Shown: positions 11,831 through 62,020 of the stretch, piece after piece | Layout of the letters: each line of letters begins with the position of its first letter | Position numbering within the stretch: position 1 is the stretch's first letter | Assembly (NCBI GenBank): GCA_029215795.1 | Contig: JARDYH010000002.1 | Span: 39,788,001 to 39,852,000 of the forward strand | Length of the DNA stretch: 64,000 nucleotides | From: Anniella stebbinsi | Lineage: Eukaryota; Chordata; Lepidosauria; Squamata; Anniellidae | Reading direction: 5' to 3' | Program-made: the position numbers and the translations under genes | The notes under the pieces: model-generated | Seen by the model: the letters and a program-made list of their open reading frames with translations, nothing else | What the model was told of the DNA's origin: nothing | Database searches by the model: none

Positions 11831-12293
11831 GGCCGTGTTCGGACATATTAGGCAATGGAGGGGGGAAGAGGCAACTGACTGTTATTTTCCCGGTGTTCCC
11901 CACATGACATGTTGCCCTTCTTCCTGTTGTGCGGCTGAAAGTCTTGGCGGCTTTCTAGGCTGCTGGTGCTCCTCCTTCCCTCCTCCCTCAGTCCTCCCAG
12001 TCCTATCCCATCATGCATTGGAAGTTCTGCTGGAGAACTCTATGACCTGCCGGAATAGTGCACTCAACGGGGGAGATTACACAACGGAACCCTCTACATG
12101 ACATCTTAATCATCAGGTCTCTGGATAAGCAACGAAGCAGCCCATTGTTTTCCCCCGTTGTTTAAATTGGCAAAATAATGTACTGTGAGTTGTGTACCCC
12201 CATACACACACACAACACAATAATCAACACCATGGATGGTTGATTCCACCCCCCACCCTCCATGGTTGATTATCATGTTGTCTGAACCAGGCC
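11831..12293. mobile_element. Family H MITE, copy 2
   Basis: Termini GGCCGTGTTCGGACATAT at the left and the complement of GGCCTGGTTCAGACAACAT at the right. Flanked by AGT on both sides (11828-11830, 12294-12296), a 3-bp duplication. The interior has weak palindromy and no shared coding frame. Confidence 0.65.
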
Positions 12294-12302
12294 AGTGTTA
12301 GA

Positions 12303-12640
12303 GTGGGGTGAAGAACCTCTTTCAACTGGAGGGATGAAATCTACTTTGGCGAAACTCTCAGGTACCATATTCCAGTAGTTGGTGAGTCCAAAATGGCAGT
12401 AGCATATTTTAGCTTGAAGTTCTTATTGGCAGTAACTTAGCCTTTGGAGAGTCATTTCAACCTTTTAGAATGGGGAAAAAACTGCACAAAAATTAGGAAA
12501 CTACCTAACACTCTGTGGTTTGGGAAACTGGGTTGGGGCCAGGGAAAGGGGCATGGCCTTGGGAACCAAAGTGGGTTGGATTCAGTTCCACAATTCTGTT
12601 GTAGAGATATCTCATTCATTTCTGCCGTTTATCTCAACTA
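12303..12640. repeat. Family P dispersed repeat, copy 2
   Basis: It shares GAACCTCTTTCAACTGGAGG, TAGCTTGAAGTTCTTATTGG and TTAGCCTTTGGAGAGTCATT with 3672 and 34456. Non-coding. Confidence 0.55.
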
Positions 12641-12999: not shown

Positions 13000-13904
13000 C
13001 ACATTGGGTTAGATTTTACTACTTTCAGTGGATACCAGGAACAGGCTGGAATTATATTGGATTATACTTTTGAAATATGTTTCATCAACTATGATTCAGG
13101 AAGATTTATTCCGGTGGCCAATCAACCACAGGGGTCAGAGTCCATAATTTCTTAAGTCAAGTCTGTTTATATTGTTAAGTAATTCTATTTCTCAGGAAAT
13201 CTGAAAACGTTCAAACACTGATGAAGATCGAAATGGTGTTTACAATCTGGAATTACCGTTTAGTATAATGTTTTAGATGTTTTCCTTACAATATATTGTT
13301 GCCAACATTTTTCATACAAATGCTTTGTACTTGTGTGTATTCCAAACATTTATGTGTATATCTTTCACTCTGTGTAACGGTTTTCAGTGTATGTATGCAT
13401 GTACAACTTTGGGGTTCAAGACTTTGAATATTACTGTCTTATTGTCTTATAGATGTGCTATATTTTTCTTACAGCACATATGTGATCCCGCAGACTGTTG
13501 GTTAAAATGGTATTTACAGCACATAGGTACACTGTATCAGTTTTTACAGGCTTGTTCCTACTTGTTGGATCTACTTTTGCTTTGCTTTTGTTCACTCAGT
13601 GAGGGCCCTTCTCTCCTTTGTGTTGTGAATCTCTGCAGAGACATGATTGTACTCCCTCGAGAAAGGAGACTGTACAGCCCAGGAGAAAGGCAGTCTGGTT
13701 GAAGTACTCATCTGCCAGGACCTGACTGCAGTGAGAAAGAGAAGGGGCAGGGCAGAGGGGAGCCGAAGAGCTTATGAGCAAAGGAATGAAAGAGCAGCTG
13801 TTCAGGTGAAAGGGATCATAGGCTTGATGTGCTTTTGCCTTAGAGGTAAAAAAAATAAAACGTGGAGGCAAACCAGGGGGGTGGGATTAGGTGTGATGGA
13901 GGTC
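13000..13904. other. Unique DNA, no feature seen
   Basis: AT-rich; no repeat family or exon recognised. Confidence 0.35.
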
Positions 13905-15550: not shown

Positions 15551-16085
15551 GTCTGATCACCTTCATCTACATTTTTTGTTTTTGCTAACAAGTATTTCTC
15601 CTTAAATTGTTAATGAATTCACAAGCTATATAGGAGAGAGTGATGTGGCATGCAACATGCAGCTGTTGGCAAACACATTTTCTTTGTGTGGAGTTCTTCC
15701 TGCTATTCCAGACATGTGATGTCCCCACATTGAACATTTCTCCCTGTTGTTCCACATCATTGCCTGCAGTTGGCAGGGGTGGGGAAATGCATAATATGAA
15801 GATATCATCAGATGAGTAAACAATCCAAGATGTTACAGGGGAGAAGAGGAGAAGTCTACACAAGGATACCATTTTCAACAGCAGCCTCATGTTGTGTGTA
15901 ACCCTGTGGTTCCATCCATAGAAACACTATTCAAGAGTGAAGTTTCCTAGAACCTTACCCTTCTGATGGCTGTCAGTAGGGGCTGTCTATCATTGGGGTA
16001 AGGGACTAGGAAACTTCCCTCTTGAAGCAGACATCAGCTTGGTCACGTGCCAACGCGTATTTCACATTTCCTTTGAATTAAAATG
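15551..16085. other. Unique DNA, no feature seen
   Basis: No repeat or exon recognised. Confidence 0.35.
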
Positions 16086-16626
16086 GGGCTGTTCACAAAA
16101 ACATGCTAAACTACACTCAGTGTTTGAGTGTGGATTGTTTTGAATTGTGGGTTATTTGTTGAGCCATGAGTTAGTATGTTGTCTGAATGTAGCATATTTT
16201 CCACAGGGTGAGTTAATGGTTGCATTCGGACAACACATTAAGCAACTGGGGGGGAGGTGGAAACTAGGGGTGTGCACTGGATCGGGTCCGATCCACGATC
16301 TGGATCCGATCCAGGGGAAATCGGATACAATTATCCGATTTCCAATCACCCCGCTGGATCATTTGATCCAATCCGATCTGATCCGGAAAGGACCCGATCC
16401 AGATCGGAATGGATCGGAGGATTGGCGGGCGCCTGCTGGCGCCCACCGCCACTTCGATTGACAGGCACCAGCGGGCGCCCGCCGATGGAAGCGGACAGCG
16501 GGGGGGGGGCCTTCCCTGGCGGGGCTGTCCAAATCCATTGGCGGGCTCCAGTGGGCGGCCGCTGATGGAAGCAGACAGCCCAGCCAGGTGAGGATCGCGG
16601 GGGGAGGAGGGAGGGAGGGGGCCCCA

Positions 16627-16811
16627 CTTACCTTCCGGGGATGTCCGCTCCCCTCCGCTGCTGGCCGCTACTGCGAGCAGGCTTCGGAGCCTGCCCCTAG
16701 GTAGCGTGCCAGGTGATGTAATCACCTGGCATACTACTCAGGAGCAGGCTGCGAAGCCTGCTCGCAATAGCGGCCAGCGGCGGAGGGGAGCGGACATCCC
16801 CGGAAGGTAAG
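16627..16811. repeat. Palindromic module 1 of hAT copy 1
   Basis: A 185-bp imperfect palindrome centred on GGTGATGTAATCACC. Arms carry GAGCAGGCTTCGGAGCCTG and CGGCGGAGGGGAGCGGAC-type blocks. Confidence 0.85.
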
Positions 16812-16836
16812 CAGGGGGGAGGGGGCCCATGGCCCG

Positions 16837-17021
16837 CTTACCTGCTGGGGCTGTCTGCTCCCCTCTGCCGCTGGCCGCTACTGTGAGCAGGCTTCATGGC
16901 CTGCTCCTGAGTAGCGCGCCAGGTGATGACATCATCTGGCGCACTACCTAGGGGCAGGCCACAAAGCCTGCTCGCAGTAGTGGCCAGCGGCGGAGGGGAG
17001 CAGACAGCCCTGGCAGGTAAG
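16837..17021. repeat. Palindromic module 2 of hAT copy 1
   Basis: A 185-bp imperfect palindrome, the same length as module 1, centred on GGTGATGACATCATC at 16929. Distance between centres is 210 bp. Confidence 0.85.
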
Positions 17022-18112
17022 CAGGGGGAGATGGTGGTAAGGAGCGTGGGGGAGGGGGCTTACCTGCAGGGGCCATCCACAGCGGACGGCCCCGGGAGGT
17101 AAGAACCACGAGGGGGGAAGAGGGAGTTAGGCCCCCCCTCACCCATCCACTGCCATTTTTTCCCCATAGACTTGCATTGGGGGAAAGCTTTCTTTCCTCC
17201 AATGCAAGTCTATGGGGAAAACAAAAATGGCGTCCGATCCAAAAATCGAATGTCTGATTTTTGGATCGGGATTGGGTCCGATCTGATCCGAGGGACCTCC
17301 GATTTTGTCCTGAACGATCCAGGACAATCATGGAGGTCCCAATCCGGGTCCCGATCTGATCCGGGGGGTCTGTGCACAGCCCTAGTGGAAACAATCGTCA
17401 GTTGTGTTGCTTATTGTGTTATGTGGAGGGTAACACGCCGCTCACAAACTACTGATGGTATGCTATTCTGCCCAAATAAGCAACTGAGAGAAACAACTGG
17501 CTTGCAAGTTGATTAGCTCAAAGCTAGTTGTTTAAAGTGTTGTGTGGAGGGGTGAGTTAATGGCATGTGGTGAGTGGGTTAAAACACAAGGCCATAGAGG
17601 CAGGCGGCAAGAGAGACCAAAGTGGCAGCTGCCACTCCGCTACAACTAGTGCAACTTGCAGAGGCTGCTGGGATAGAACTGGGAGGGAGTAGGGAGGGTG
17701 GGGAGAGGGGCGGGGGCTGTGTCAGTCAAATGCTGGGTTGACTATTAGTCCACTCAACGCCAGCCCCAACCTCCCACAGTTGTGTAGGAACATGTTGTGT
17801 GGGGAGTACCCACAAAATAACCAACTGTGAGTTGGCTAGTCAACCCACCATTAACTAATGCGTTGTCCAAATTCAGCCATTGTGTTGTCTGAATGCAGCC
17901 AGGGTGGCTTGTTAAGCACATTGAACAACTCAACAACTAACCACATGTTCTCAAGGTGGCTTGTTTGAAAAAATAAGCTACATCACATGGTTAACAAGCC
18001 ACCCAGCCTGCATCCAGACAACACAACAACCCATGGTTCAACAAATAACCCATGGTTCAAAAATCCCGCATTAACCACTGAACATGGATTAATGTGTTGA
18101 GTGAACAGCCCC

Positions 18113-18463
18113 AGTATCTTGCATTTTAAATGTTATAGCACTTAAACAACTAATTGGTCAAATTGGCCCTATAAAGAACATATCATGTATTGCTGGGCTA
18201 AGGAACACTGAGCACTGATTTTTCTCCTGAGCAACCTCCAGGTCTGCTACAAAATCTTTATGTACTTGAGAGGATTCTTGGAGGAGGGAATTTCAGGGAG
18301 CTCTGTTGATTCACATGGGGCATTAGCTAATTGGGATGTGTGCTGTGTGGCCTTGCAGCTGTGCATTGTAGGGGAGAGTTCATAATAGTGAACAAATGGT
18401 GTTTCAAGCTGCTTCAGTGAGGAATTCCATGATAAGCTTTAAAAGAAAAATTTCCCCTAAAGT
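18113..18463. other. Unique DNA, no feature seen
   Basis: Nothing recognised. Confidence 0.35.
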
Positions 18464-27730: not shown

Positions 27731-29108
27731 TCTTTGTGCGATATCAGACCATTCCATTTTTTGTTGGGGGCATGTGTGTCGAAGGGTGGTCTCGCTGATG
27801 AAAGAGGAGGCCGGGGTGGTTCTCTGCTCAGCTGCTCAGCTGTGAAGGGGAACGAGAGAGGATGCTGAAGAGAGAAGAGAAACAAAATTATTTGAAAGAA
27901 TTATGGGACGAAGATTTAAAAGAACAAATAAAGGATCAAAATTGTGGAAAAATATGGAATTTGCATATTTTGAACACTATGTCAGTAAGAATAAAAGAAA
28001 ACTATTATATAATAGCATGGAGGTGGTATTTAACACCGGTAAAATTAAATCAAATTGATAGGAAACATTCGAAGCTATGTTGGAGAGGTTGTCAAGATAT
28101 AGGAACGTATTTCCATATGTGGTGGACTTGTAAACATGTACAAATATTTTGGTTAAAAGTATTTGAAGAAGTAAAAAGGATAACAGATTTAAAGTTTGAG
28201 ATATGTCTTAGGATAGTTTTACTATAAAGTTATGACAAAGGAGAGCAAAATGTTAAAGATTTAATTACAAACTTAATGACAGTAGCAAGGTTAATAATAT
28301 CTAGACAATGGAAAATGCAAGGCAACTACCAAATAGAAGATTGGTATAAAATCTGGTATAAGATTGGTGTGGGATGTTGCTATAAACGATAAGTTAACAA
28401 GCAATATTAAAGTTAAAAGAGGAATATTAAGGAAAAATGAATTTGGAAATATATGGGGATTATTTGTGGATTATGTATTTAAAAAAAGGAAGGGGTGTAT
28501 ACTGTCACATGAATCTATGCAATTTTGGAAGAATGTTTTTTTAAAAAAAATGTTACATAAAAATGTAGTAGCTGGTCCCAGGGAGGTGGGGTGCACTAGT
28601 TAGGTGAATTATGTTAGAGTAATAATGTTAGTCATATGATTTATAAGTGATGTGTTTATAGTTAAGATATGTTATTCATGCTATTTTAGGGGAGCAAGAT
28701 TTGGAATGGCTGGAATCGCAAACAGTAGAGATAGAATGTAAACTGCGAAATATATTTTTTACCAAAATGCAGAAGAAAGAATGGAAGGTACTGGACAACC
28801 CATTATTGGAAAATATAATGTCGATATGGGAGAAGTATAGGGGGAAGTTGATACTAGGGATGTGCACTGGATCGGACCCGATCCACGATCCGAGTCCGGT
28901 CCAGTGGGAAATCGGATAAATTATCCGATTTCCGATCCCGCAGCTGGATCGGCCGATCCAATCCGAACCGGTCCGAAAAAGCTCCGAACCGGTTCGGCGG
29001 ATCGGCGGATCGGCGGGCGCCCACTGGCGCCCACCGCCGCTTCCATTGGCGGGCGCCAGCGGGCGCCCGCCGATGAAAGTGGACAGCGGGGGGGGGAGGA
29101 GGGGGGCA

Positions 29109-29299
29109 CTTACCTTCTCGGCCCGGTGGCTCCCGTCCGGCGCCGGCGCCTACTACAACTAGCAGGCTCCGCGGCCTGCTCTAGGGTGGCGCGCCGGGTG
29201 ATGTCATCACCCGGCGCGCTACTCTAGAGCAGGCCGCGGAGCCTGCTGGTAGTAGTAGGCGCCGGCGCCGGACGGGAGCCACCGGGCCGGGAAGGTAAG
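29109..29299. repeat. Palindromic module 1 of hAT copy 2
   Basis: 191 bp, centre 29204 (CGGGTGATGTCATCACCCG). Opens CTTACCTT and closes GAAGGTAAG. Includes GGCGCGCC and GCGCCGGCGCC blocks. Confidence 0.9.
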
Positions 29300-29350
29300 G
29301 AGGGGGTGCGTGGAGGGGAGGAGGGGGCGCGCGGAGGGGGGAGGGGGGCC

Positions 29351-29541
29351 CTTACCTTTCCGGCCCGGCGGCTCCCGTCCGGCGCCGGCGCCTACTATTC
29401 CCAGCAGGCTCCGCGGCCTGCTCTAGGATGGCGCGCCGGGTGATGTCATCACCCGGCGCGCTACTCTAGAGCAGGCCGCGGAGCCTGCTGGAAGTAGTAG
29501 GCGCCGGCGCCGGACGGGAGCCGCCGGGCCGGAAAGGTAAG
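29351..29541. repeat. Palindromic module 2 of hAT copy 2
   Basis: 191 bp, centre 29446, 242 bp from the first. The spacer is GGGTGCGTGGAGGGGAGG-type purine-rich DNA. Confidence 0.9.
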
Positions 29542-29592
29542 GAGGGGGTGCGTGGAGGGGAGGAGGGGGCGCGCGGAGGGGGGAGGGGGGCC

Positions 29593-29783
29593 CTTACCTT
29601 TCCGGCCCGGCGGCTCCCGTCCGGCGCCGGCGCCTACTACTCCCAGCAGGCTCCGCGGCCTGCTCTAGGATGGCGCGCCGGGTGATGTCATCACCCGGCG
29701 CGCTACTCTAGAGCAGGCCGCGGAGCCTGCTGGAAGTAGTAGGCGCCGGCGCCGGACGGGAGCCGCCGGGCCGGAAAGGTAAG
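29593..29783. repeat. Palindromic module 3 of hAT copy 2
   Basis: 191 bp, centre 29688, again 242 bp from its neighbour. By eye almost identical to module 2. Confidence 0.9.
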
Positions 29784-29841
29784 GAGGGGGTGCGTGGAGG
29801 GGAGGAGGGGGCGCGCGGAGGGGGGAGGGGGGAGGGGGGCC

Positions 29842-30019
29842 CTTACCTGCCCGGCCCGGCGGCTCCCGTCCGGCGCCGGCGCCTACTACTACCAGCAGGC
29901 TCCGCGGCCTGCTCCAGGGTGGCGCGCCGGGTGATGTCATCACCCGGCGCGCTACTCGAGAGTAGGCCGCGGAGCCCGCTGGTAGTAGCCGCCGGCGCCG
30001 GACGTGCCGAGAAGGTAAG
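29842..30019. repeat. Palindromic module 4 of hAT copy 2
   Basis: 178 bp, centre 29937, 249 bp from module 3. The right arm is about 13 bp shorter than the left through loss of part of the GCGCC block. Confidence 0.88.
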
Positions 30020-31639
30020 TGGCGGGGAAGGGGGCTTACCCCCCCCCGGAGCCGTCCGCTTCTATCCGCTGGCGCCCGCGGGCGCCAGCGGATGGAAGCA
30101 GGCGGCCCCAGGGGGGGTAGGGAGCGCGGGGGAGGGGGTTTACCTGCCGGGGCCGTCCACAGCGGACGGCCCCGGGGGGGGGAGGGAGTTAGAACCCCCC
30201 TTACCCACCCGCCGCCATTTTTTCCTCATAGACTTGCATTGCAATGCAAGTCTATGGGGAAAAAAATGGTGGCCGATCCAAAAATGTACGATTTTTGGGT
30301 CGGGATCGGACTCGATCCGGTCCGGGGGGCCTCCGATTTTGTCCGAACCGGTCCGGGACAAAATTGGAGGTCCCGATCCGGGTCCCGATCCGATCCGGGG
30401 GGTCCGTGCACACCCCTAGTTGATACCAGGAGATTCTCCGCTAGCCCCAGTTGTAGTAGTGGGAAACTTCCCAAGAGCATTAAAATCAGAGATGGAAGTG
30501 AGACTGAAAGAACAAGATATTCTTAAGCTAAGGAATTGGATGGGAAAGATGAAAGATAGTGAGCATATTAAAGATTTGTTTAAAGGACAGAAGATAGCGT
30601 GGTTTAAGTCTCTGCAACTGGTGAAATGGACAGAGGAATGGAGGAAAAAAAAATAATAAATGTAGAAATAATACCAGATTTGAAGATTTAATTGAACAAA
30701 TAGAAAAAAAAGAGGAAGCCAGAGCTAAAAAAGGACTCACTAGCGAGATATATAAAATTTTAATAGAGGGGGAATGTCAGGACTCACTTAAGATTATAAA
30801 AGAGGTATGGGAAGAAGATATTAGGGAAAAAATTAATGAAGAAAATTGGGGAAGGATGTGGAATGTAAGAATGTTGAAATTATTGTCGATTAGAATTAAG
30901 GAGAACTATTACAAGATAGTTTGGAGATGATATCTAACACCTGTAAGATTTCACCAGATTGATAAAAAAGTGTCTAAGAATTGTTGGAGGGGATGTCAGG
31001 AGGTTGGGACCTATTTTCACATGTGGTGGAGCTGTGAACAAATACAAAAATTCTGGGAAAAGGTTTTTAAAGAAATAAGTGATATAATTGGAAGTAAATT
31101 GGAATTAAACCCGAAGCTAGCTCTACTAGCAATATGGGATAGCAGGAATAAGCATATAATTAATAGAGAATTGGTAAACAACCTCCTGGCACCCGTTAGA
31201 ATAATGATTGCTAAAAATTGGAAAGGGCAACGAAGTTATAAAATAGAAGATTGGTATAAAGAAATTTGGGATATAGCATTGAATGATATGTTGACATGTA
31301 AAATGAAAATAATGAGGGGAATGTCCAGTAAGAGTGATTTTGGAGATATATGGAATCCCTTTTTGGAATATGTTTTAAGATCGGGAAAGGGACAGTCGCC
31401 TTCAAAAGAGTCATTAAAATTCTGGAAGGAAGATGAATGAATGGGAGTAGGTCTTGGGGGGCGGGGTGCACGGGGGTAGTCGAGGGAGTTAGTTTGTTTA
31501 TGTATTATGTGTATGTTTGTTTGTTTTGTTGAAAAATGAATAAAAATTATACTAAAAAAAAAAGTGATGTGTTTATGTTTTTTTCTTTATGTTCATTACA
31601 TGAAAATCAATTTAATTTTTTTGGAAAAAAAAAAACCCA

Positions 31640-35136: not shown

Positions 35137-37174
35137 GGGTGGCCACTTAGGCAACACCCAAAAAGTAGACTTGCATCACCCAAAAAAGAGGGCACAGATT
35201 TGCATAACATTTGCATATAGTAATGTATATGTATAGATGCACATTTAGAAATAATTACTGTAATTTAAATAGAAATACAATACATCTCACCATAGTGAAA
35301 CTTGTGACCAGGTGACCAGTGTGCCTTGCTCAGTCTGTCGTCCAGGCGCTGTTGATGGGCAACTTGAAGGCCTGGCTCTGCCTTCTGATGGGTCCTTATT
35401 AGGGGTGTGCACGGACCCCCCGGATCGGATCGGGACCCGGATCGGGACCTCCAATTTTGTCCCGGACCGGTTCGGACAAAATCGGAGGCCCCCCGGACCG
35501 GATCGAGTCCGATCCCGACCCAAAAATCATACATTTTTGGATCGGCCGCCATTTTTTTCCCCATAGACTTGCATTGCAATGCAAGTCTATGAGGAAAAAA
35601 TGGCGGCGGGTGGGTAAGGGGGGGCCTAACTCCCTCCCCCCCCCGGGGCCGTCCGCTGTGGACGGCCCCGGCAGGTAAACCCCCTCCCCCGCGCTCCCTA
35701 CCCCCCCTGGGGCCGCCCGCTTCCATCCGCTGGCGCCCGCGGGCGCCAGCGGATAGAAGCGGACGGCTCCGGGGGGGGGGTAAGCCCCCTTCCCCGCCAC
35801 TGCTTACCTTCTCGGCCCATCTGGCGCCGGCGGCTACTACCAGCGGGCTCCGCGGCCTACTCTCGAGTAGCGCGCCGGGTGATGACATCACCCGGCGCGC
35901 CATCCTAGAGCAGGCCGCGGAGCCTGCTGGGAGTAGTAGGCGCCGGCGCCGGACGGGAGCCGCCGGGCCGGAAAGGTAAGGGCCCCCCTCCCCCCTCCCC
36001 CTCCTCCCCTCCACGCACCCCCTCCTTACCTTTCCGGCCCGGCGGCTCCCGTCCGGCGCCGGCGCCTACTACTTCCAGCAGGCTCCGCGGCCTGCTCTAG
36101 AGTAGCGCGCCGGGTGATGACATCACCCGGCGCGCCATCCTAGAGCAGGCCGCGGAGCCTGCTGGGAGTAGTAGGCGCCGGCGCCGGACGGGAGCCGCCG
36201 GGCCGGAAAGGTAAGGGCCCCCCTCCCCCCTCCCCCCTCCCCCTCCTCCCCTCCACGCACCCCCTCCTTACCTTTCCGGCCCGGCGGCTCCCGTCCGGCG
36301 CCGGCGCCTACTACTTCCAGCAGGCTCCGCGGCCTGCTCTAGAGTAGCGCGCCGGGTGATGACATCACCCGGCGCGCCATCCTAGAGCAGGCCGCGGAGC
36401 CTGCTGGGAGTAGTAGGCGCCGGCGCCGGACGGGAGCCGCTGGGCCGGAAAGGTAAGGGCCCCCCTCCCCCCTCCCCCCGCCCCCTCCTCCCCTCCACGC
36501 ACCCCCTCCTTACCTTCCCGCCCCGGTGGCTCCCGTCCGGCGCCGGCGCCTACTACTACCAGCAGGCTCCGCGGCCTGCTCTAGAGTAGCGCGCCGGGTG
36601 ATGACATCACCCGGCGCGCCACCCTAGAGCAGGCCGCGGAGCCTGCTAGTAGTAGTAGGCGCCGGCGCCGGACGGGAGCCACCGGGCCGAGAAGGTAAGT
36701 GCCCCCCTCCTCCCCCCCCCGCTGTCCACTTTCATCGGCGGGCGCCCGCTGGCGCCCGCCAATGGAAGCGGCGGTGGGCGCCAGTGGGCGCCCGCCGATC
36801 CGCCGATCCGCCGAACCGGTTCGGAGCTTTTTCGGACCGGTTCGGATTGGATCGGCCGATCCAGCTGCGGGATCGGAAATCGGATAATTTATCCGATTTC
36901 CCACTGGACCGGACTCGGATCGTGGATCGGGTCCGATCCAGTGCACATCCCTAGTCCTTATCTTTATACCAGAGTTGGACCTTCAAGTAGAGGACACTCC
37001 TTCTGGCAGCTGTTCCCCAGGTACCCTTGACAGCCAACTTCAAGGCCCCAGCACTACCTCCCTTTTTCTGGTTCTTTAGCTTTAAACAAGCTTTGGATTG
37101 GGCAGCCCTTCAGGCAGAAGACACCTTCAAATAGAGGACTGTCCTCTGCAAAGTAGGACACATGGCCAGCCTAT
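35137..37174. mobile_element. Family J element, interrupted by hAT copy 3
   Basis: Left end CAGGGTGGCCACTTAGG, right end GGACACATGGCCAGCCTA. Interior blocks ATTTAAATAGAAATACAATA, GACCAGGTGACC and CAGCCCTTCAGGCAGAAG are shared with other J copies. Without the guest it is about 476 bp. Flanks TACGCATA and TGTGCATA are an 8-bp duplication with two transitions. Confidence 0.7.
35400..36953. mobile_element. GC-rich hAT-like palindrome-array element, copy 3 (1,554 bp, reverse)
   Basis: Termini TAGGGGTGTGCAC and GTGCACATCCCTA. Perfect 8-bp duplication GTCCTTAT (35392-35399, 36954-36961), inside family J. It is in reverse orientation to copy 2, and by eye nearly identical to it over the right-hand 120 bp and through the modules. 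Four module centres lie at 35885, 36120, 36362 and 36604. The copy pair forms an inverted repeat with 4,981 bp between. Confidence 0.9.
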
Positions 37175-37379: not shown

Positions 37380-38080
37380 TTCTATGTAATTTTGAAAGAC
37401 AAAACGAAGTGCTATCCTTAACCAAAAACCACAAACAAGAAATTGCCAAAAAGTTAAGGTATACAAATTATTTTTAAAAATATATTTTATACAAGTATGT
37501 CCATAAAAGATTAGAGCAATTGCTATGTACGTTCAATTCTCTCTACAATGTTGTTAAAGCAAATTGCTCAACTAATTAATACAGGAAATAGGCCAAACGC
37601 GTTTCGACGTAACGTGTCTTTCTCAGTGGCCTGTAGTATCCGGCACAAACTGGTGCAGTGATTCAGTTGTTTAAAGATGTAAAAATCTGACCGAGGGGGC
37701 TGCCTGACAATATTATGAAAACAATACGAGTTTCATCACTCCCCCAGACCAGCAAAGCCAACAGCGAGTGCTTGAAAAGTAGTCCTAACCTCCGTTTTTC
37801 AAAGTCAGTTCCGTGATTTTTACATCTTTAAACAACTGAATCACTGCACCAGCTTGTGCCGGATACTACAGGCCACTGAGGAAGACACGTTACGTCGAAA
37901 CGCGTTTGTCCTATTTCCTGTATTAATTAGTTGAGCAATTTGCTTTAACAACATTGTAGAGAGAATTAAATGTATATAGCAATTGCTCTAACCTTTTATG
38001 GACATATTTGTATAAAATATATATTTAAAAATAATTTGTATACCTTAACTTTTTGGCAATTTCTTCTATGTAATTTTGAA
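37380..38080. mobile_element. Long foldback element between 17-bp direct repeats
   Basis: TTCTATGTAATTTTGAA occurs at 37380-37396 and exactly again at 38064-38080. Between them, arms of about 245 bp run inward from AGAAATTGCCAAAAAGTTAA at 37430 and outward to the complement near 38062. The arms include GAAATAGGCCAAACGCG facing CGCGTTTGTCCTATTTCC, and GTTACGTCGAAACGCG. The unpaired centre is about 37677-37810. About 33 bp on the left (37397-37429) have no partner. No poly-A tail or frame is seen. The 17-bp duplication is too long for hAT, Harbinger or mariner. Confidence 0.75.
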
Positions 38081-48741: not shown

Positions 48742-49070
48742 TAGGATAGCCATGGATACTCCTTTGGAGATGACAGTCCTCTCTTTGAAAGGCTGCCAGA
48801 GGGAGTGTCTTCTAGTTTGAAAGTGTCCTCTACTTGAAGGTTCAACTCCAGGATAAAGATAAAGACCCATCAGAAGGAAGAGCCGGGCCTTCAAGTTGCT
48901 CATCAACATCACCTGGACACCAGGCAGGTCACCTGGTCATAGTCTTCCACCCTATGGTGAGATACACTGTATTTCTATTTAAGGAATAATAATTTGTAAA
49001 TTTGCATCATATGCAAATTTGATGCACATAGGCATTCTTTTGTCCTTTTTTTTTTTTGGTGGCCACCCTA
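48742..49070. mobile_element. Family J element
   Basis: Left end TAGGATAGCCATGG, right end GGTGGCCACCCTA. Interior GTCCTCTCTTTGAAAGGCTG, ATGGTGAGATACACTGTATT and GCAAATTTGATGCACA. No clear flanking duplication. Confidence 0.65.
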
Positions 49071-51475: not shown

Positions 51476-52828
51476 GTGAGGCACGTAGCTACTAAAGAGA
51501 GGGTCTCATCAGTGGTGGAATCCATATTGTGGCATGGAGAGGTTCACTTGGCCCTGACATTGTGGTCTTTTCGGTCCCAGGCTAGTTAGTCCTTCCGTTT
51601 AGAAAGCTGGGTTAGTACATTTTTTTAGATTTTTGCACTGCTGCTGGCTTTTACTTTGGTTTTATTGTCATTTTCAGTGTTTTAGGTTTTTATGTTATGC
51701 TTTATTATGCACCTGTATTTTATGGCTTTTAAGTTTTGTTTTGTGATCTGCTCAGAGAACTTTGGGTATTGGGCAGCATGATCCTCCTTATAGCATGATC
51801 CTAAGACACTACACTTCCTCCTCTTGCCAACACGGGGAAAAAAGATGACATTTTTCTCAAATGGAGAATGCAAACCTCCAGGAGTACAAATGATGGCAGA
51901 AGCATCACTGAGTTCCTGCCACTGGTCTAGGCAGTAAATCCAAAGCAGTACCTAGTTTAGATGCTTTGGCAGGGCAGTGGGAGGGGCTGCACTCTCCCAT
52001 TTTCCTGCTGTCATTTGTCTTTGCCTATCATTAAATGCCCACTCCACATGCCACGTGTTATGTATGTGCTCATAGCAGCTGTTTGTTCCTCTAAACGAAG
52101 GAATAAAATAGTTGCGTTAGTTGCATGGTTGTCAATATGCTACAGTGCATAAATTATGGAAATCATGCCTTACAGCATGATCCTAAGCATCTTTACTTGG
52201 AAATCATCTCCACGGAGTTCAATGGGGTTTAATCCCGAGTAAGTGTGCATAAGAATGCAACATTCGGGTGCTTCCATACTATGGCCTTTTCACATTCCTC
52301 ATGCAATATTGATCCATGATCTATTGCTGTGGATGCTTGTTCTTGTTAACCCCCCATCCTCCAACTCTTATCAATTCGTTATTGAATTTCCCTCAATTTC
52401 TATCTTGCTGGAAACTGGACAGTTTGTGACTCTTGGATGGCTCTGGTCAACTCCCACCTCCCACTTCTGAAGACAAAAAGAGATTGCAAAACACTAATGC
52501 CAGATGTGATGGCATTGTAAATGATAGATCATTCACTGATCATTATAAATAAAATAAATCTCACCTTCTCCGCCATCCCCAATGGGGAATCTGTGCATTT
52601 AAAACTGGCATGTCAGGTTGACAGGGCAAGCTCTCCCTAGAGTTTTGTCTCCATGCCAGGGAAGACTTTAGGTATGAAATGTTTGTCTGTTGTGCAGCTG
52701 TTAAAGGCACAAGTCCTGATCTAGCTCTAGTCACAGGCCACTAGTTGCCCATAAGAACTGGTGGGCCTCAATTTTCAGATGCATGCATCCAGCCTGTTCA
52801 ATGAGGCTCAGATGACTATTGCAGTGAG
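51476..52828. other. Unique DNA with LINE and repeat traces
   Basis: 51640-51785 resembles a LINE 3' end (TGATCTGCTCAGAGAACTTT). 52185-52262 is dispersed repeat O. The rest is unassigned. Confidence 0.4.
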
Positions 52829-56598: not shown

Positions 56599-56978
56599 AG
56601 GGGCGGGATATCTGGTATGGAGTAAACAGATCGGGATCGTCTCTCCTCCTGCATGAGAAAAACTAAAAAGAATAATATCCCATCTATAAGAACTCAAAAC
56701 TGTAAGTGGAAAGCTGTGCTTGTTATGGGAATCTCTACAGAGTAAGGGAAAGGAAACTGCAGAGCTTTAAATAAATCGGCAGTGCTATAAAATGCTTAAT
56801 GAGCCTGGGAGAGTTGCCAAGGCTGGGAATTGAAATGGCAAAAGTGTACTTATCTTTGTTGATACAACTTTAAACTAAAGCAAAGAATAATTGGATATTT
56901 ACTGAGAATACTGGACATTATTAACTAATTAGCAAGGATCTAAGCAAGAGATGGTAGAAAGATCGTGCTTCGTAACCA
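56599..56978 (+). promoter_or_regulatory. Presumed L1 5' UTR / internal promoter
   Basis: The 380 bp between the 5' target duplication and ORF1. In L1 elements this region holds an internal pol II promoter. There is no CpG-rich block here and no motif I can name; assignment is by position only. Confidence 0.5.
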
Positions 56979-58010
56979 TTGGCTGGATGTCAGATGAGCA
57001 GAGAAAGGGGTAGAAGCAGGAGAATTTCGCTACCGAGGTGGACTAGATCCAAAACTCACCCATCCGATAAGAGCTGGTCCCGTCTGACTAGGAAGAATTC
57101 AGAAAATTTAGAGGCAGTCATGACGAATGGGAAAGCAGGCCCGCCGCAAACCGGAAGTGGGAATCATAAAAATGGAGCTAAGCCAGGAGCAGTACCCAAA
57201 ACAATGAAACCACAAGCCGAGCAAATGTCTTCTGAAGATTTACTGGCTGGCATTCAAGGCATGCTGGATAAGCAGAAGAATGAGCTCATGCAGGAGGTTA
57301 AAAAGATCCAGAAATCTCAATCGGAGTTACAAAACGGTCTTCAAATGATTAAAGATAAACTTGTATCTTTGGAGCAGCAAACAGATCAGAACAAAGATAA
57401 GATAAAAAAGCAAGAAATAATTCTACAAGAAATGGACTTATGCCTAATTTCTATGGAAGACAGAGACAGAAGAATGAATATTCACATCAGATCCTTCCAT
57501 GAACAGCAGGGGGAAAACTCAAAGATTTTGAAAGACAAGCTAATGGAATGGATTAAGGAGATGGAGCCTCAAATGACATGGGATGATGCAAATATTGAAA
57601 GGATCCACCGAGTTGGACCTAAAAGGGGTGGAATGGTCCCAAGGGACATAATATTAAGATTTGCCAGTTTCTACAAAAAAGAAAAATTGATGCAAGCCAT
57701 CAGACGTGCTGGGCAACTGATGTTCCAGTCTTCACAGATACAGGTCTACAATGATCTATGTATTCAAACAATTCAATGGAGGAAAAGTGTAAAGCTCTGT
57801 ACAACTACCCTGCAGAAGAATTCTATTGTTTATAGCTGGGGATACCCAGTATTCCTGAGATTTATGTACCAGGGGAAACAACACAGAATAACATCATGTG
57901 AGCAAGGAATGGATTTTCTGTGGAGCCTGGGCCTGATGGAGAAAGACACCAATGGGAGGCAGGAACAAGAAAGAGAAGAAGAAGGGGCAGCAGGAGGAAG
58001 CAGTTTGTGA
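56979..58010 (+). CDS. L1 ORF1 protein (ORF1p), intact, 343 aa
   Basis: ORF1p is the RNA-binding trimer that coats L1 RNA in the cytoplasmic particle and acts as a nucleic-acid chaperone. Seen here: a basic N-terminus (residues 1-45), a probable coiled coil at about 87-160 (SELQNGLQMIKDKLVSLEQQ and similar heptads), an RRM-like part starting about residue 164 (RRMNIHIRSF) with IERIHRVGPKRG, and a C-terminal domain ending near 320. At 343 residues it is close to the human protein (338). The ATG at 56979 gives the full N-terminus and precedes ORF2 by about 240 bp. No stop or frameshift is seen, in contrast to ORF2. Confidence 0.88.
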   Translation: MAGCQMSRERGRSRRISLPRWTRSKTHPSDKSWSRLTRKNSENLEAVMTNGKAGPPQTGSGNHKNGAKPGAVPKTMKPQAEQMSSEDLLAGIQGMLDKQKNELMQEVKKIQKSQSELQNGLQMIKDKLVSLEQQTDQNKDKIKKQEIILQEMDLCLISMEDRDRRMNIHIRSFHEQQGENSKILKDKLMEWIKEMEPQMTWDDANIERIHRVGPKRGGMVPRDIILRFASFYKKEKLMQAIRRAGQLMFQSSQIQVYNDLCIQTIQWRKSVKLCTTTLQKNSIVYSWGYPVFLRFMYQGKQHRITSCEQGMDFLWSLGLMEKDTNGRQEQEREEEGAAGGSSL

Positions 58011-58254
58011 CTGAGATATAGATCAAAGAGGGATAGTAAGAAGATTAAAGGGAGGGGGAATTCTGCTTTGGTTCCATGCGGGATGTTTGCCCCCCCCCAA
58101 AGGGTCCTAAGAAGAGGAGGATAGGAACTACCACCTGGGGAAACCTGGGGTTGAAGGGGGGAAAATGGGGGTTATATGTGGGGGGAGGGGGGAGGGAAGG
58201 AGGGGGTAATTGTGTCACATTAGGAGACCTACAAAGAAAATTAAGAATGGAGAT

Positions 58255-61200
58255 ATGGAAAATAAAGTAAGATTGATAATTTTAAATGTTAATGGGCTGG
58301 GTAGTGTTGTTAAAAGAAAGAGGATTGAAGGGTTGTTGAATAAAAGGAAAGCTGATATAATATTTTTACAAGAAACACATCAAAAAGAAGATGGCAAAAA
58401 TGAACTTAAAATGAGGAATTTGGGTGTATATGAGAAAGCATATGGGACTTCTAAAGCAAGAGGAGTTGCGATAATAATTTCTAAAAAATGTGCACTAAAT
58501 GTGGTTAAAGTGGTAAAGGACGTTTTGGGAAGATTTATTATTTTACAGTGTTTCATGGGGGATGAAAAATATGTATTGATTAATGTATATGCTCCAAATG
58601 AAAAGCAAATAGAATTTTATGATAAAGTGCTTAGAAATATGGGAAATGTAGAGAAAGCAAATATTGTAATGGTCGGAGACTTTAATATGGTGATGGACAA
58701 AATGAAAGATAAAGATACTATAAAAGTTATTGGGAAAACGGGTTTAGCCAAAGTAATGGAACAAAGAGAATTGAAGGATGTATGGAGAATAGTAAAAGGG
58801 GAAGAAAAGAAATATACCTTTTATTCATCAAAACATAAGAGTTTTTCCAGGATTTACTATATATTTGTCTCAAAGAATATGCTTTCTAAGATTATGGACT
58901 GTGAAATAGGAGTAATTAAGGTCTCAGACCACGTATTAATGAGAATGGATATTAAAATAAAGATTACAGGGAAGCAAAAAGGTGGAGATTGGATACTAAA
59001 ATTCTAAGTTATAAAAACATTGTGGAAAAAATGAAAAAGGAAATACAGACTATATGGGAAATAAATGAAACAGGGGTAAATTCGCAGGGGATAGTTTGGG
59101 ACATGATGAAAGCAGTAGTAAGAGGGATATGTATTAGAGAATCGTGTAAATTAAAAAGACAACAAGAAGCACATAGTAAAAAGACTGAAGAGGAGATTAA
59201 GGAATTAGAGGAACAATTTAGAACAAATAAGGATAAGCACATATATGCTCAACTCCAAGCAAAAGAGAAAGAACGAGGAAAAGGATATAGAGAGAGTCCA
59301 AAAAGAATTAATATATTTGAAAAGAAATTTCTTTAAATATAGCAATAAAAATTCTAAAATGCTGGCAAGGTCCACGCAGTCAAAGAAGGAAAAAATATAA
59401 TAGGGACAATTAAAGATAAACAGGGAAAAGCTGTAATTTAATGAAAGAAAAATTAAAATTTTTTGAAGATTTTTATCAGAAACTGTATACATCAGAAGTG
59501 GGCCCACAGACAAGAATACAGGAATATATAGAGAAGAATTGGAAGATAAGATTACAAGGCAAGGATAGGGATTATATGGAAGCATTAGTGACTGAAAAAG
59601 AAATAGAGGGAATTATTGATAAATTGAAAGGAGGAAAATCTCCAGGAGTAGATGGGCTGGGGCCGGAATATTATAAGATATTTAAAGAGCTTTTAGTACC
59701 AAAAATGAAAAAATGTATAATAATATAATAAAGGGAGAGAAGATCCCGCCATTGTGGGAACATTCATTGATAATACTAATGCCGAAACCAGATAAGGATT
59801 TAACGGACCCAGCATCATATAGACCTATTTCTTTAATTAATCAAGATTCTAAAATATTTACAGCAATCATGGCAACAAGACTGAATACCTTTATAAACAA
59901 GTATATAAAAAAGGATCAATGTGGATTTATTCCAGAGAGGCAAATGCCTAATTTAATAGGGAGAGTATTGAATATAATAAATGTTATTAAAAGAAGGAAT
60001 TTAAAAGCAGGGTTGCTAGCTTTAGATATTTTTAAAGCCTTTGATTGCGTGGAATGGCCGATGCTAAAAACTATTATAAAGATATTTGGTTTTGGAGAAA
60101 GGTTCATGGGAGTGATTAATCAGCTTTATGCAAACAATAAGGCGGAGGTAATGGTAAATGACAGTTTAACACAACATTACCTTAGCCCGAGGAACAAGAC
60201 AAGGGTGTCCTCTCTCCCCAATATTATTTGCAATTGTTATAGAAATATTGGCAAATGTTATTAGGGAGGACGAGAGGTTGAAAGGGATAGGAGAGGAAGA
60301 TAAAATAAAAATTAATATGTTTGCGGATGATACTTTATTGACATTAGAAAATCCGAGGGAAAGCATAGAAGAAATAAAACAACATTTGAGAGAATTTGGA
60401 GAAAATACAGGACTACAGGTAAATTGGGGAAAATCAGAAATGATGTTATTTAATTATGACAAAGAAGAAAGGGAGGAGTGTAGCTCAAAACTTGATCTTA
60501 AGATTAAAAATATAGTGTGCTATTTAGGAGTTTATATTACGAAAGATTTAGAAAAGTTAGAGGAAATAAATTTTAATAGTTTAAAAAAACAGATAATGAA
60601 GAAGTTAGAGGCTTATAGGAAATTAAAGCATTCATGGTTTGGTAGAATAGCTGTTATTAAAATGAAAATATTACCAAAGATTAATTTTTTGTTTAGAATG
60701 TTACCAATTAAAATAACAGAAGTAGAAATAAGTTGGCAAAGTATGATAAACAATTATTGTAATGGAGATAGAAAAGCAAGAATCAATAAAACAAAATGGT
60801 ATAAGACTCAAAGGAAAGCAGGGTTGGGAGTCCCGAATATAAAGATGTATTATATAGCTAATCGATTAAGATATGTTATAAATAGTATAGTAGGAAAAGA
60901 GGATTTAGAATGGTTAGAGACGCAGACAGGAGAAACAGAGTTAGAGTTACAAAATATATTTTTTAGTAAAATACAAAAGAATCAACTGAAGGATATGGAA
61001 AATCCCATCCTAAGAAATATCATAGAAATTTGGGGAAAGTATAAAAATAAATTATTACCAGGAATTTCTCCTCTAAGCCCAGTTGTTCTATTGGAGAACT
61101 TCCCAGGTAATTTGAGAAGAGAATTGGAAGGGCTATTGAGGGGGGAAAAATAATTAAAGTGAAAGATTGGCTGAAGAGATTGGTTAACAAAAAGCAAATA

Positions 61201-62020
61201 GAAGAAGTTTTAAGAGGGACAATGGACACAGAAATGGAAAAAGAAAAATAAGGACTGTAGAAAGGAAACAAGATTTGAAAAGTTAATTGAGTCAAGAGAG
61301 AAGGAGGGGGAAAATAAAAGTAAAAAAGGTATAATAAGTGAAATATACAACATATTGTTAGAGGAGGGAGAGCAACAAGAAATTTTGAAAACATTCTGGG
61401 AAGAAGATTTTAAAAAACAAATTACTGAGGATAACTGGGGGAAGATATGGGAACTAAGAACTTTAAAGTTGTTATCAATAAGGATAAAAGAAAATCATTA
61501 CAAAATAATTTGGAGATGGTATCTCACTCCTGTAAGATTACATCAGATAGATAAGAAAATGTCAATGCTATGTTGGAGGGGTTGTCAGGAAGTGGGGACA
61601 TATTTCCATATGTGGTGGACATGTGAGTATGTACAAAAATTTTGGAAAAGAGTTTTTAAAGAAATAAGTGAAATACTGGGTAAGAAAGTGGAAGCAAATT
61701 TAGCTTTATTCTCGATGTTTGATAAAGAATATGGGAATAAAAATACAAGATAATTGATTAACAACCTCCTGACACCAGCTAGATTAATGATAGCTAAGAA
61801 TTGGAAAATACAAAGGAATTACAGTATAGAAGAATGGTATAAAGGAGTGTGGGATATTGCAATTAACGATAGATTAACATGTAAAATTAAAGTTAGGATG
61901 GGATTATCCAAAAAGAATGATTTTGAAAGTATTTGGGGATCATTTATAGAATATGTTTTAGTAAAGGGGAGAGGTTGTACACCTTCAAAAGAATCGTTGC
62001 AATTTTGGAAAAATGTATAA
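58255..62020 (+). pseudogene. L1 ORF2 (endonuclease and reverse transcriptase), broken
   Basis: ORF2p nicks the target and reverse-transcribes L1 RNA. The start ATG is at 58255 (MENKVRLIILNVNGL). The endonuclease region (58255-59007) keeps FLQETH, VYAPN, GDFN and SDH, but the usual SRIDY reads SRIYY, replacing a conserved Asp. The reverse transcriptase has PGVDGLGPEYY (59650), SYRPISLIN (59817), ALDIFKAFD (60022), RGTRQGCPLSP (about 60190) and FADD (about 60322). The C-terminus has CWRGCQEVGTYFHMWWTC (C-x3-C-x7-H-x4-C). Reading-frame changes or stops fall near 58985, 59335-59440, 59720, 60185, 61140, 61250 and 61753. It is inactive. Confidence 0.9.

Follow-up and report, generated by a model that had tools for sequence, protein, structure and literature searches.

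A non-autonomous hAT-type transposon family with a variable-number array of palindromes in Anniella stebbinsi

Three copies in the window and their counterparts in the genome

The window analysed here is a 64,000-bp stretch of the genome of Anniella stebbinsi (GenBank assembly GCA_029215795.1, contig JARDYH010000002.1, positions 39,788,001 to 39,852,000, forward strand). It contains three copies, c1, c2 and c3, of a hAT-type transposon whose interior consists of palindromes and holds no recognisable remnant of a transposase (Table 1). All three copies carry TAGGG(N)TGTGCAC at their ends. Between the two inverted ends, 12 of the first 13 bases match, the mismatch being position 6, after which the symmetry is lost. 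Each copy is bounded by a perfect 8-bp duplication on both sides (GTGGAAAC for c1, GTTGATAC for c2 and GTCCTTAT for c3), and the three duplications alike fit nTnnnnAn. Positions, ends and duplications had been proposed in a sequence-only reading of the window and were recovered exactly. The copies c2 and c3 are 98.6% identical (22 differences over 1,550 ungapped sites), and c1, with 76% identity to either, is an older relative. The GC content of c2 is 71%, and no Pfam family matched two of its reading frames. Rfam likewise gave no match at the gathering threshold anywhere in the window.

In the young copies c2 and c3, near-perfect palindromes of 191–193 bp recur about every 242 bp, with module centres in c2 spaced 242, 242 and 249 bp apart. 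The interior had been described as a regular series of near-perfect palindromes of about 191 bp at 242-bp spacing; this layout holds for c2 and c3, whereas c1 has only two modules, 210 bp apart. Smaller palindromes of 27, 40, 78, 29 and 48 bp are also present in c2. Palindromes make up 43% of c1 and 58% each of c2 and c3, compared with a maximum of 2.4% in shuffled copies (100 single-base shuffles each). As a single strand, module A2 of c2 is predicted to fold with −136 kcal/mol as DNA and −222 kcal/mol as RNA (z-scores of −25.8 and −26.8, respectively, against dinucleotide shuffles). The motifs CTTACCT and AGGTAAG border the large modules in all three copies. Viral contigs searched with the module arm, the D unit and the 5′ end gave no matches. 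A literature search found no paper title naming this palindrome-bearing hAT family, and a search for the terminal strings of the copies returned no matching paper on transposons, as judged by title.

Empty counterparts of the insertion sites are found within the window itself. The joined flanks of c2 align across the insertion point to an L1-type long interspersed nuclear element (LINE) at 60860–61110 (169 of 241 columns identical), and those of c3 to 48800–49030 (167 of 213 columns). For c1 the empty-site alignment is weaker (12180–12320, 71 of 106 columns). As the alignments run through the insertion point, the target of c2 was a LINE and that of c3 a dispersed repeat. The aligned LINE (56976–61753) is in several broken frames, with reverse transcriptase, endonuclease and L1 RNA-binding domains in the part from 56976 to 61153; a second, related LINE at approximately 27889–31440 hosts c2. 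The copy c1 is also bracketed by TGGGGCTGTTCAC, which stands at 16084 and recurs in reverse complement at 18101 (16084–18113 in total), so that c1 possibly lies inside another inverted-end repeat.

Searching the source genome (1.89 Gb in 91 contigs) with end and module sequences, as the sequence-only reading had proposed, revealed a high-copy family. Exact matches to the 21 bases of the 5′ end are present at 13,391 places (6,701 forward, 6,690 reverse), and those to a 24-base arm motif at 52,540 (26,239 and 26,301 on the two strands); the reversed-pattern control gave zero occurrences for both. Of 31 genome copies examined, 18 have 8-bp duplications that match at all eight (n = 15) or seven (n = 3) positions, and two form a pair with exchanged duplications. 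Among 30 genome copies, the 5′ flank has T at position 2 in 22 (binomial p = 2.5 × 10−7) and A at position 7 in 26 (p = 1.6 × 10−11). The non-autonomous hAT assignment is thus supported by empty sites, by thousands of 5′ ends and by duplications around genome copies.

The 21 complete copies (18 from the genome and three from the window) range from 741 to 2,322 bp in length and contain zero to seven modules, counted by a centre motif that overlooks diverged modules such as those in L048, L064 and L068. At C1:2345415–2347409, nine arm motifs follow a single 5′ end at a spacing of 242–249 bp, suggesting that this copy has nine or more modules.

Transposase-bearing relatives and a second carrier of the palindrome

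The search for a partner with matching termini had been suggested among the checks of this assignment, and the source genome does contain transposase-bearing hAT relatives with alignable ends. A genome search for the hAT dimerisation domain (PF05699) scored 150 places among 1,498 candidates, all 150 above the cut-off. Of these, 97 share one score (61.8 bits), all on contig C1, and 92 of the 97 lie in open frames of at least 841 codons. The best relative found is an element of about 15.15 kb on contig C2, flanked on each side by the duplication GTGAAATC. Within it, an open frame of 867 codons from stop to stop contains a zf-BED domain (E-value of 5.2 × 10−10) and PF05699 (E-value of 2.4 × 10−16), and residues 788–850 match Hermes and related transposase chains (E-values of 1.7 × 10−13 to 6.3 × 10−13). 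The 5′ end of this relative is identical to that of c2 in 123 of 164 columns, and its 3′ end agrees with c2 in 106 of 160 columns and with c1 in 125 of 182. At about 15 kb the element is unusually long, and it is crowded with tandem arrays (140 bp × 14, 30 bp × 30, about 324 bp × 6.8 and 162 bp × 3); arrays of 147 bp lie near both of its ends.

Two shorter hAT-domain-bearing elements, L036 (5,283 bp) and L031 (3,171 bp), have TAGGGATGTG ends and perfect duplications, with one stop each inside the hAT domain. Across eight hAT-bearing pieces (L031, L033, L034, L036, L037, L038, L070 and L071), the likeness to c1–c3 is limited to the ends and unit D; the D unit of c1, for example, has matches of 29–33 bp near both ends of L033. 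Hence the palindromic interior does not resemble a relic of those hAT elements.

A homologue of the palindrome was found in an element of a different kind (Table 1). This second carrier, located in L032 and separate from the hAT gene there, has perfect 14-bp inverted ends (TAGGGTGACCAGAT) and the 8-bp duplication CCCATGCC on both sides. Its ends show no resemblance to those of c1–c3 (scores of 7–10). It contains one palindrome with 111-bp arms that are 93% complementary, which matches that of c1 in 147 of 193 columns (score 91, against a maximum of 20 in 200 shuffles). The CTTACCT/AGGTAAG edges are the same, and the centre carries TGACGTCA, which we take to be a cyclic AMP response element (CRE) motif. 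The palindrome is thus common to two families with different ends and, judged by these alignments, is not restricted to a single family of ends, and may be a cassette exchanged between families. A dispersed repeat starting with TAGGGTGACC or TAGGCTGACC, often in inverted pairs, occurs in the window at 1729, 39585, 40931, 41674, 46187, 49973, 51032, 63775 and other positions. It opens with the bases that also start the second carrier, a likeness compared at the end only.

Table 1. Features of the palindrome-bearing hAT-type copies in the window, and of two further elements elsewhere in the genome.
Feature	Position	Strand	Remarks
c1	16265–17384	+	1120 bp, 2 modules 210 bp apart, duplication GTGGAAAC
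c2	28855–30418	+	1564 bp, complete non-autonomous hAT element, 4 large palindrome modules
c3	35400–36953	-	1554 bp, 4 modules, duplication GTCCTTAT
Left target-site duplication of c2, GTTGATAC	28847–28854	+	perfect
5′ terminal region of c2	28855–29014	+	GATCGG/CCGATC subterminal motifs; aligns with transposase-bearing hAT 5′ end
Palindrome module A1 of c2	29109–29299	.	191 bp
Palindrome module A2 of c2	29350–29542	.	193 bp
Palindrome module A3 of c2	29592–29784	.	193 bp
Degenerate module A4 of c2	29841–30004	.	symmetric core 29886–29988, 103 bp
Palindrome B of c2	30040–30117	.	78 bp, outer arm sequence common with A
Palindrome C of c2, short form	30147–30175	.	same outer arm visible in c1, L040, L058
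Palindrome D of c2, CCCATAGACTTGCATTG type	30211–30273	.	
3′ terminal region of c2	30283–30418	+	aligns with transposase-bearing hAT 3′ end
Right target-site duplication of c2, GTTGATAC	30419–30426	+	perfect
Transposase-bearing relative (L034, L070, L071)	contig C2, ~352.264–352.281 Mb		~15,152 bp by coordinates; PF05699 score 64.7
Second carrier of the palindrome	L032, 8139–9194 (contig C8, ~19.630–19.631 Mb)		1,056 bp

Origin of the palindromic interior

The palindromes of older copies fall into sizes of 29–45 bp (C), about 58–82 bp (B) and about 185–193 bp (A, plus shorter decayed forms). Counted from CTTACCT, the consensus outer arms agree in 28 of 32 columns between A and B, 18 of 20 between A and C and 19 of 20 between B and C, and for none of the three comparisons were any of 10,000 shuffles as good. 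These consensus sequences were built from 20 A, 18 B and 6 C arms, including two mis-anchored A rows from L058 that were kept. Pairwise comparisons were weaker for some pairs: A against C of c2 does not stand above shuffles (763 of 1,000), and A against B of c2 was equalled in 144 of 1,000 and c1 A1 against c2 B in 102 and 39 of 1,000. Taken together with the strong consensus, this indicates a shell that stands out in the older forms but has become blurred in young A modules. Such shared shells would fit one arm having turned back at different depths. In L068 (5′ end at C1:2826261–2826281, minus strand), a palindrome of 283 bp repeats the usual tip CAGGTGATG in alternating orientation; it is a possible intermediate of palindrome growth.

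Comparing modules within and between copies suggests that the large module was multiplied in one piece. Among 12 complete copies with three or more modules, middle modules have an identity of 0.986 within a copy and 0.964 between copies. Last modules resemble one another among copies (0.958) more than the middle modules of their own copy (0.931), so they keep their own identity; first modules have no clear identity of their own in the matching comparison (0.935 against 0.942). Homogenisation between arms was rejected as the source of the symmetry. The left and right arms of A1–A3 in c2 and c3 differ at 5–6 of 93 places, and these left and right forms persist from module to module, so the arms do not look equalised. 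An inversion of A2 relative to A1 in c1 is only slightly favoured (6 and 7 inner differences, against 8 and 11) and is not claimed.

We conclude, with a probability of roughly 90%, that the element is a high-copy non-autonomous hAT transposon; its array would have arisen by copying back of an arm and subsequent multiplication of the unit. Judging from its alignable ends, it was probably moved in trans by the hAT transposase of a relative. The transposase of the 15.15-kb element, or of a closer sister, would bind the GATCGG-rich ends and move the element by cut and paste. Within the element, arms of a single GC-rich sequence would have been copied back on themselves at different depths, giving the small C, the middle B and the large A, with their common outer shell as the product. 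The large module would then have multiplied whole, through unequal exchange or replication slippage. At some time the palindrome was probably exchanged between families, since its homologue sits in an element with quite different ends.

Several observations weigh against this account. The sequence examined for 11 of the 31 genome copies contains no 3′ end, two copies have exchanged duplications, and 30 of the 31 come from the start of contig C1, the remaining one being from contig C2. T at position 2 and A at position 7 occur together in only 19 of 30 5′ flanks. The ends of the 15.15-kb relative are about 66–75% identical to those of c1 and c2, no transposase element with near-identical ends was found among the pieces examined, and the relative is, on these alignments, only a candidate for the actual partner. 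That a homologous palindrome sits between other ends argues against an origin wholly inside the family. Which of A, B and C came first is not proven, and growth from the palindrome centre is a bold proposal that rests mainly on the shared shells and one copy.

The palindrome may instead have entered the hAT family from outside, from another transposon family or a satellite, with the array growing by slippage or unequal exchange. We consider the odds of this evenly balanced. The palindrome between unrelated ends in L032 agrees with it, as do the variable number and spacing of the modules, which resemble a variable number tandem repeat. Among the first matches listed out of 52,540, however, all arm motifs lie within about 2.3 kb of listed 5′ ends. 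Moreover, smaller palindromes outside the array have the outer arm of the array unit, which places part of the diversification inside the hAT family. These same palindromes could be read the other way round, with B and C as forms of A shortened by central deletion rather than A as grown from them. Central deletion in palindromes is a known type of event, and C corresponds almost exactly to the beginning of the A arm, but the innermost bases of B depart from A, and the re-iterated tip of L068, in one copy only, looks like growth at the palindrome centre. We regard shortening as the somewhat doubtful alternative to copy-back. An extension of copy-back, which we think unlikely, is that the palindrome builds itself: its hairpin tip would be re-copied again and again inside mobile elements, as the palindrome of L068 looks, yielding nested palindromes under one common outer shell that have passed between families with different ends, as in L032. 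As hAT excision proceeds via hairpins at the donor ends, such re-copying may be tied to transposition.

The conserved edges of the modules could also be explained by function. The outward-facing AGGTAAG would then be a splice donor under selection, serving a first exon used in both directions from a promoter in the middle of the palindrome. The motif stands at the edges of the large modules of c1–c3 and of the second-carrier palindrome with its TGACGTCA centre, and it has no mismatch in 77 left and 66 right young arms (85% filter, 103 modules). Yet 10 of 89 and 16 of 89 seven-base windows in the young arms, the edge window included, are equally conserved, and relative to c1 three of 87 windows reach the conservation of the edge motif. 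The edge is changed in 4 of 18 properly anchored A arms of older copies and in many B arms. Conservation does not support this explanation, and we rejected it as very improbable. Hardly credible, finally, is a foldback element of the FB, Galileo or Tetris kind, in which the palindromes would be long terminal inverted repeats. Inverted repeats with internal tandem units are also described for Tetris (PMC4079207), but the terminal inverted repeat here is only 13 bp with one mismatch, and the palindromes are internal and each complete by itself.

Known systems, rearrangement and significance

Like non-autonomous hAT elements and hAT miniature inverted-repeat transposable elements (MITEs), of which the mar family of Drosophila is an example (PMC3517528), the present family has short inverted ends, an 8-bp duplication, no recognised coding region, a high copy number and transposase-bearing relatives with alignable ends. 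Two reading frames of c2 have no Pfam match and copies are numerous in the genome, but the length of complete copies varies (741–2,322 bp, n = 21). In those elements the interior is what is left of the transposase gene or a short uniform spacer; here the length is variable and the interior is a series of palindromes, each about 190 bp, in tandem. The long terminal inverted repeats of foldback elements are absent, symmetry ending after the 13 terminal bases, of which 12 match.

Tandem repeats inside non-autonomous transposons have precedents. Tetris of Drosophila virilis is a foldback transposon whose internal tandem repeats (TIR-220) measure about 220 bp and number three in one allele and four in a second; it is also a source of array-like DNA (PMC4079207). 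The unit size is similar to ours. The Tetris repeats are AT-rich and lie inside long terminal inverted repeats, whereas here they are internal to a GC-rich element and the unit is itself a palindrome. The element that encodes the Tetris transposase was not found in that study; here, a transposase-bearing relative was found. Xmix/Xstir and miDNA4 of Xenopus are MITEs with satellite-like tandem units (PMC9659126), and the coral CMITE arrays are arrays of whole MITEs (PMC2872659). These, too, are small DNA transposons with tandem arrays inside them or built from them, but in contrast to our family, palindromic units are not described in the accessible portions of either source. The proposal of an undescribed element class goes beyond the evidence: the interior is unusual, but the frame is that of an ordinary hAT, and internal tandem arrays are known in non-autonomous elements. 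What we describe is a hAT-type family with a variable-number palindrome array, whose palindrome is common to at least one other family.

The pair with exchanged duplications, L060 and L061, consists of inverted copies 415 bp apart (C1:2556655–2558494). On the plus strand their flanks are CTTAAAAT/CTAAATAG and ATTTTAAG/CTATTTAG, the inner flank of each copy being reverse-complementary to the outer flank of its partner, which is what an inversion of the stretch between them would leave. The flanks suggest that this inversion occurred by recombination between the copies or by a transposition using ends of both, and thereby that the family also rearranges the genome. Galileo of Drosophila causes inversions in a comparable way, by ectopic recombination between copies; it differs from the hAT family here in belonging to the P superfamily and having long terminal inverted repeats (PMC2775673).

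Copies that differ in age and module number provide a graded series in which the growth, loss and recombination of palindromes could be read and dated. Long near-perfect palindromes are usually unstable in genomes; despite this, the present hAT family has spread them to thousands of sites. The open frame of the transposase-bearing relative makes the question of mobilisation directly testable, and, as the palindrome recurs in another family, such units seem to pass from one transposon to another. If the palindrome does build itself, the more than 50,000 arm motifs of this one genome would document how long palindromes come into being, multiply and persist in a vertebrate. The window also contains an inverted pair of 263-bp arms (37425–37687 and 37815–38077), 95% complementary and separated by a spacer of 127 bp.

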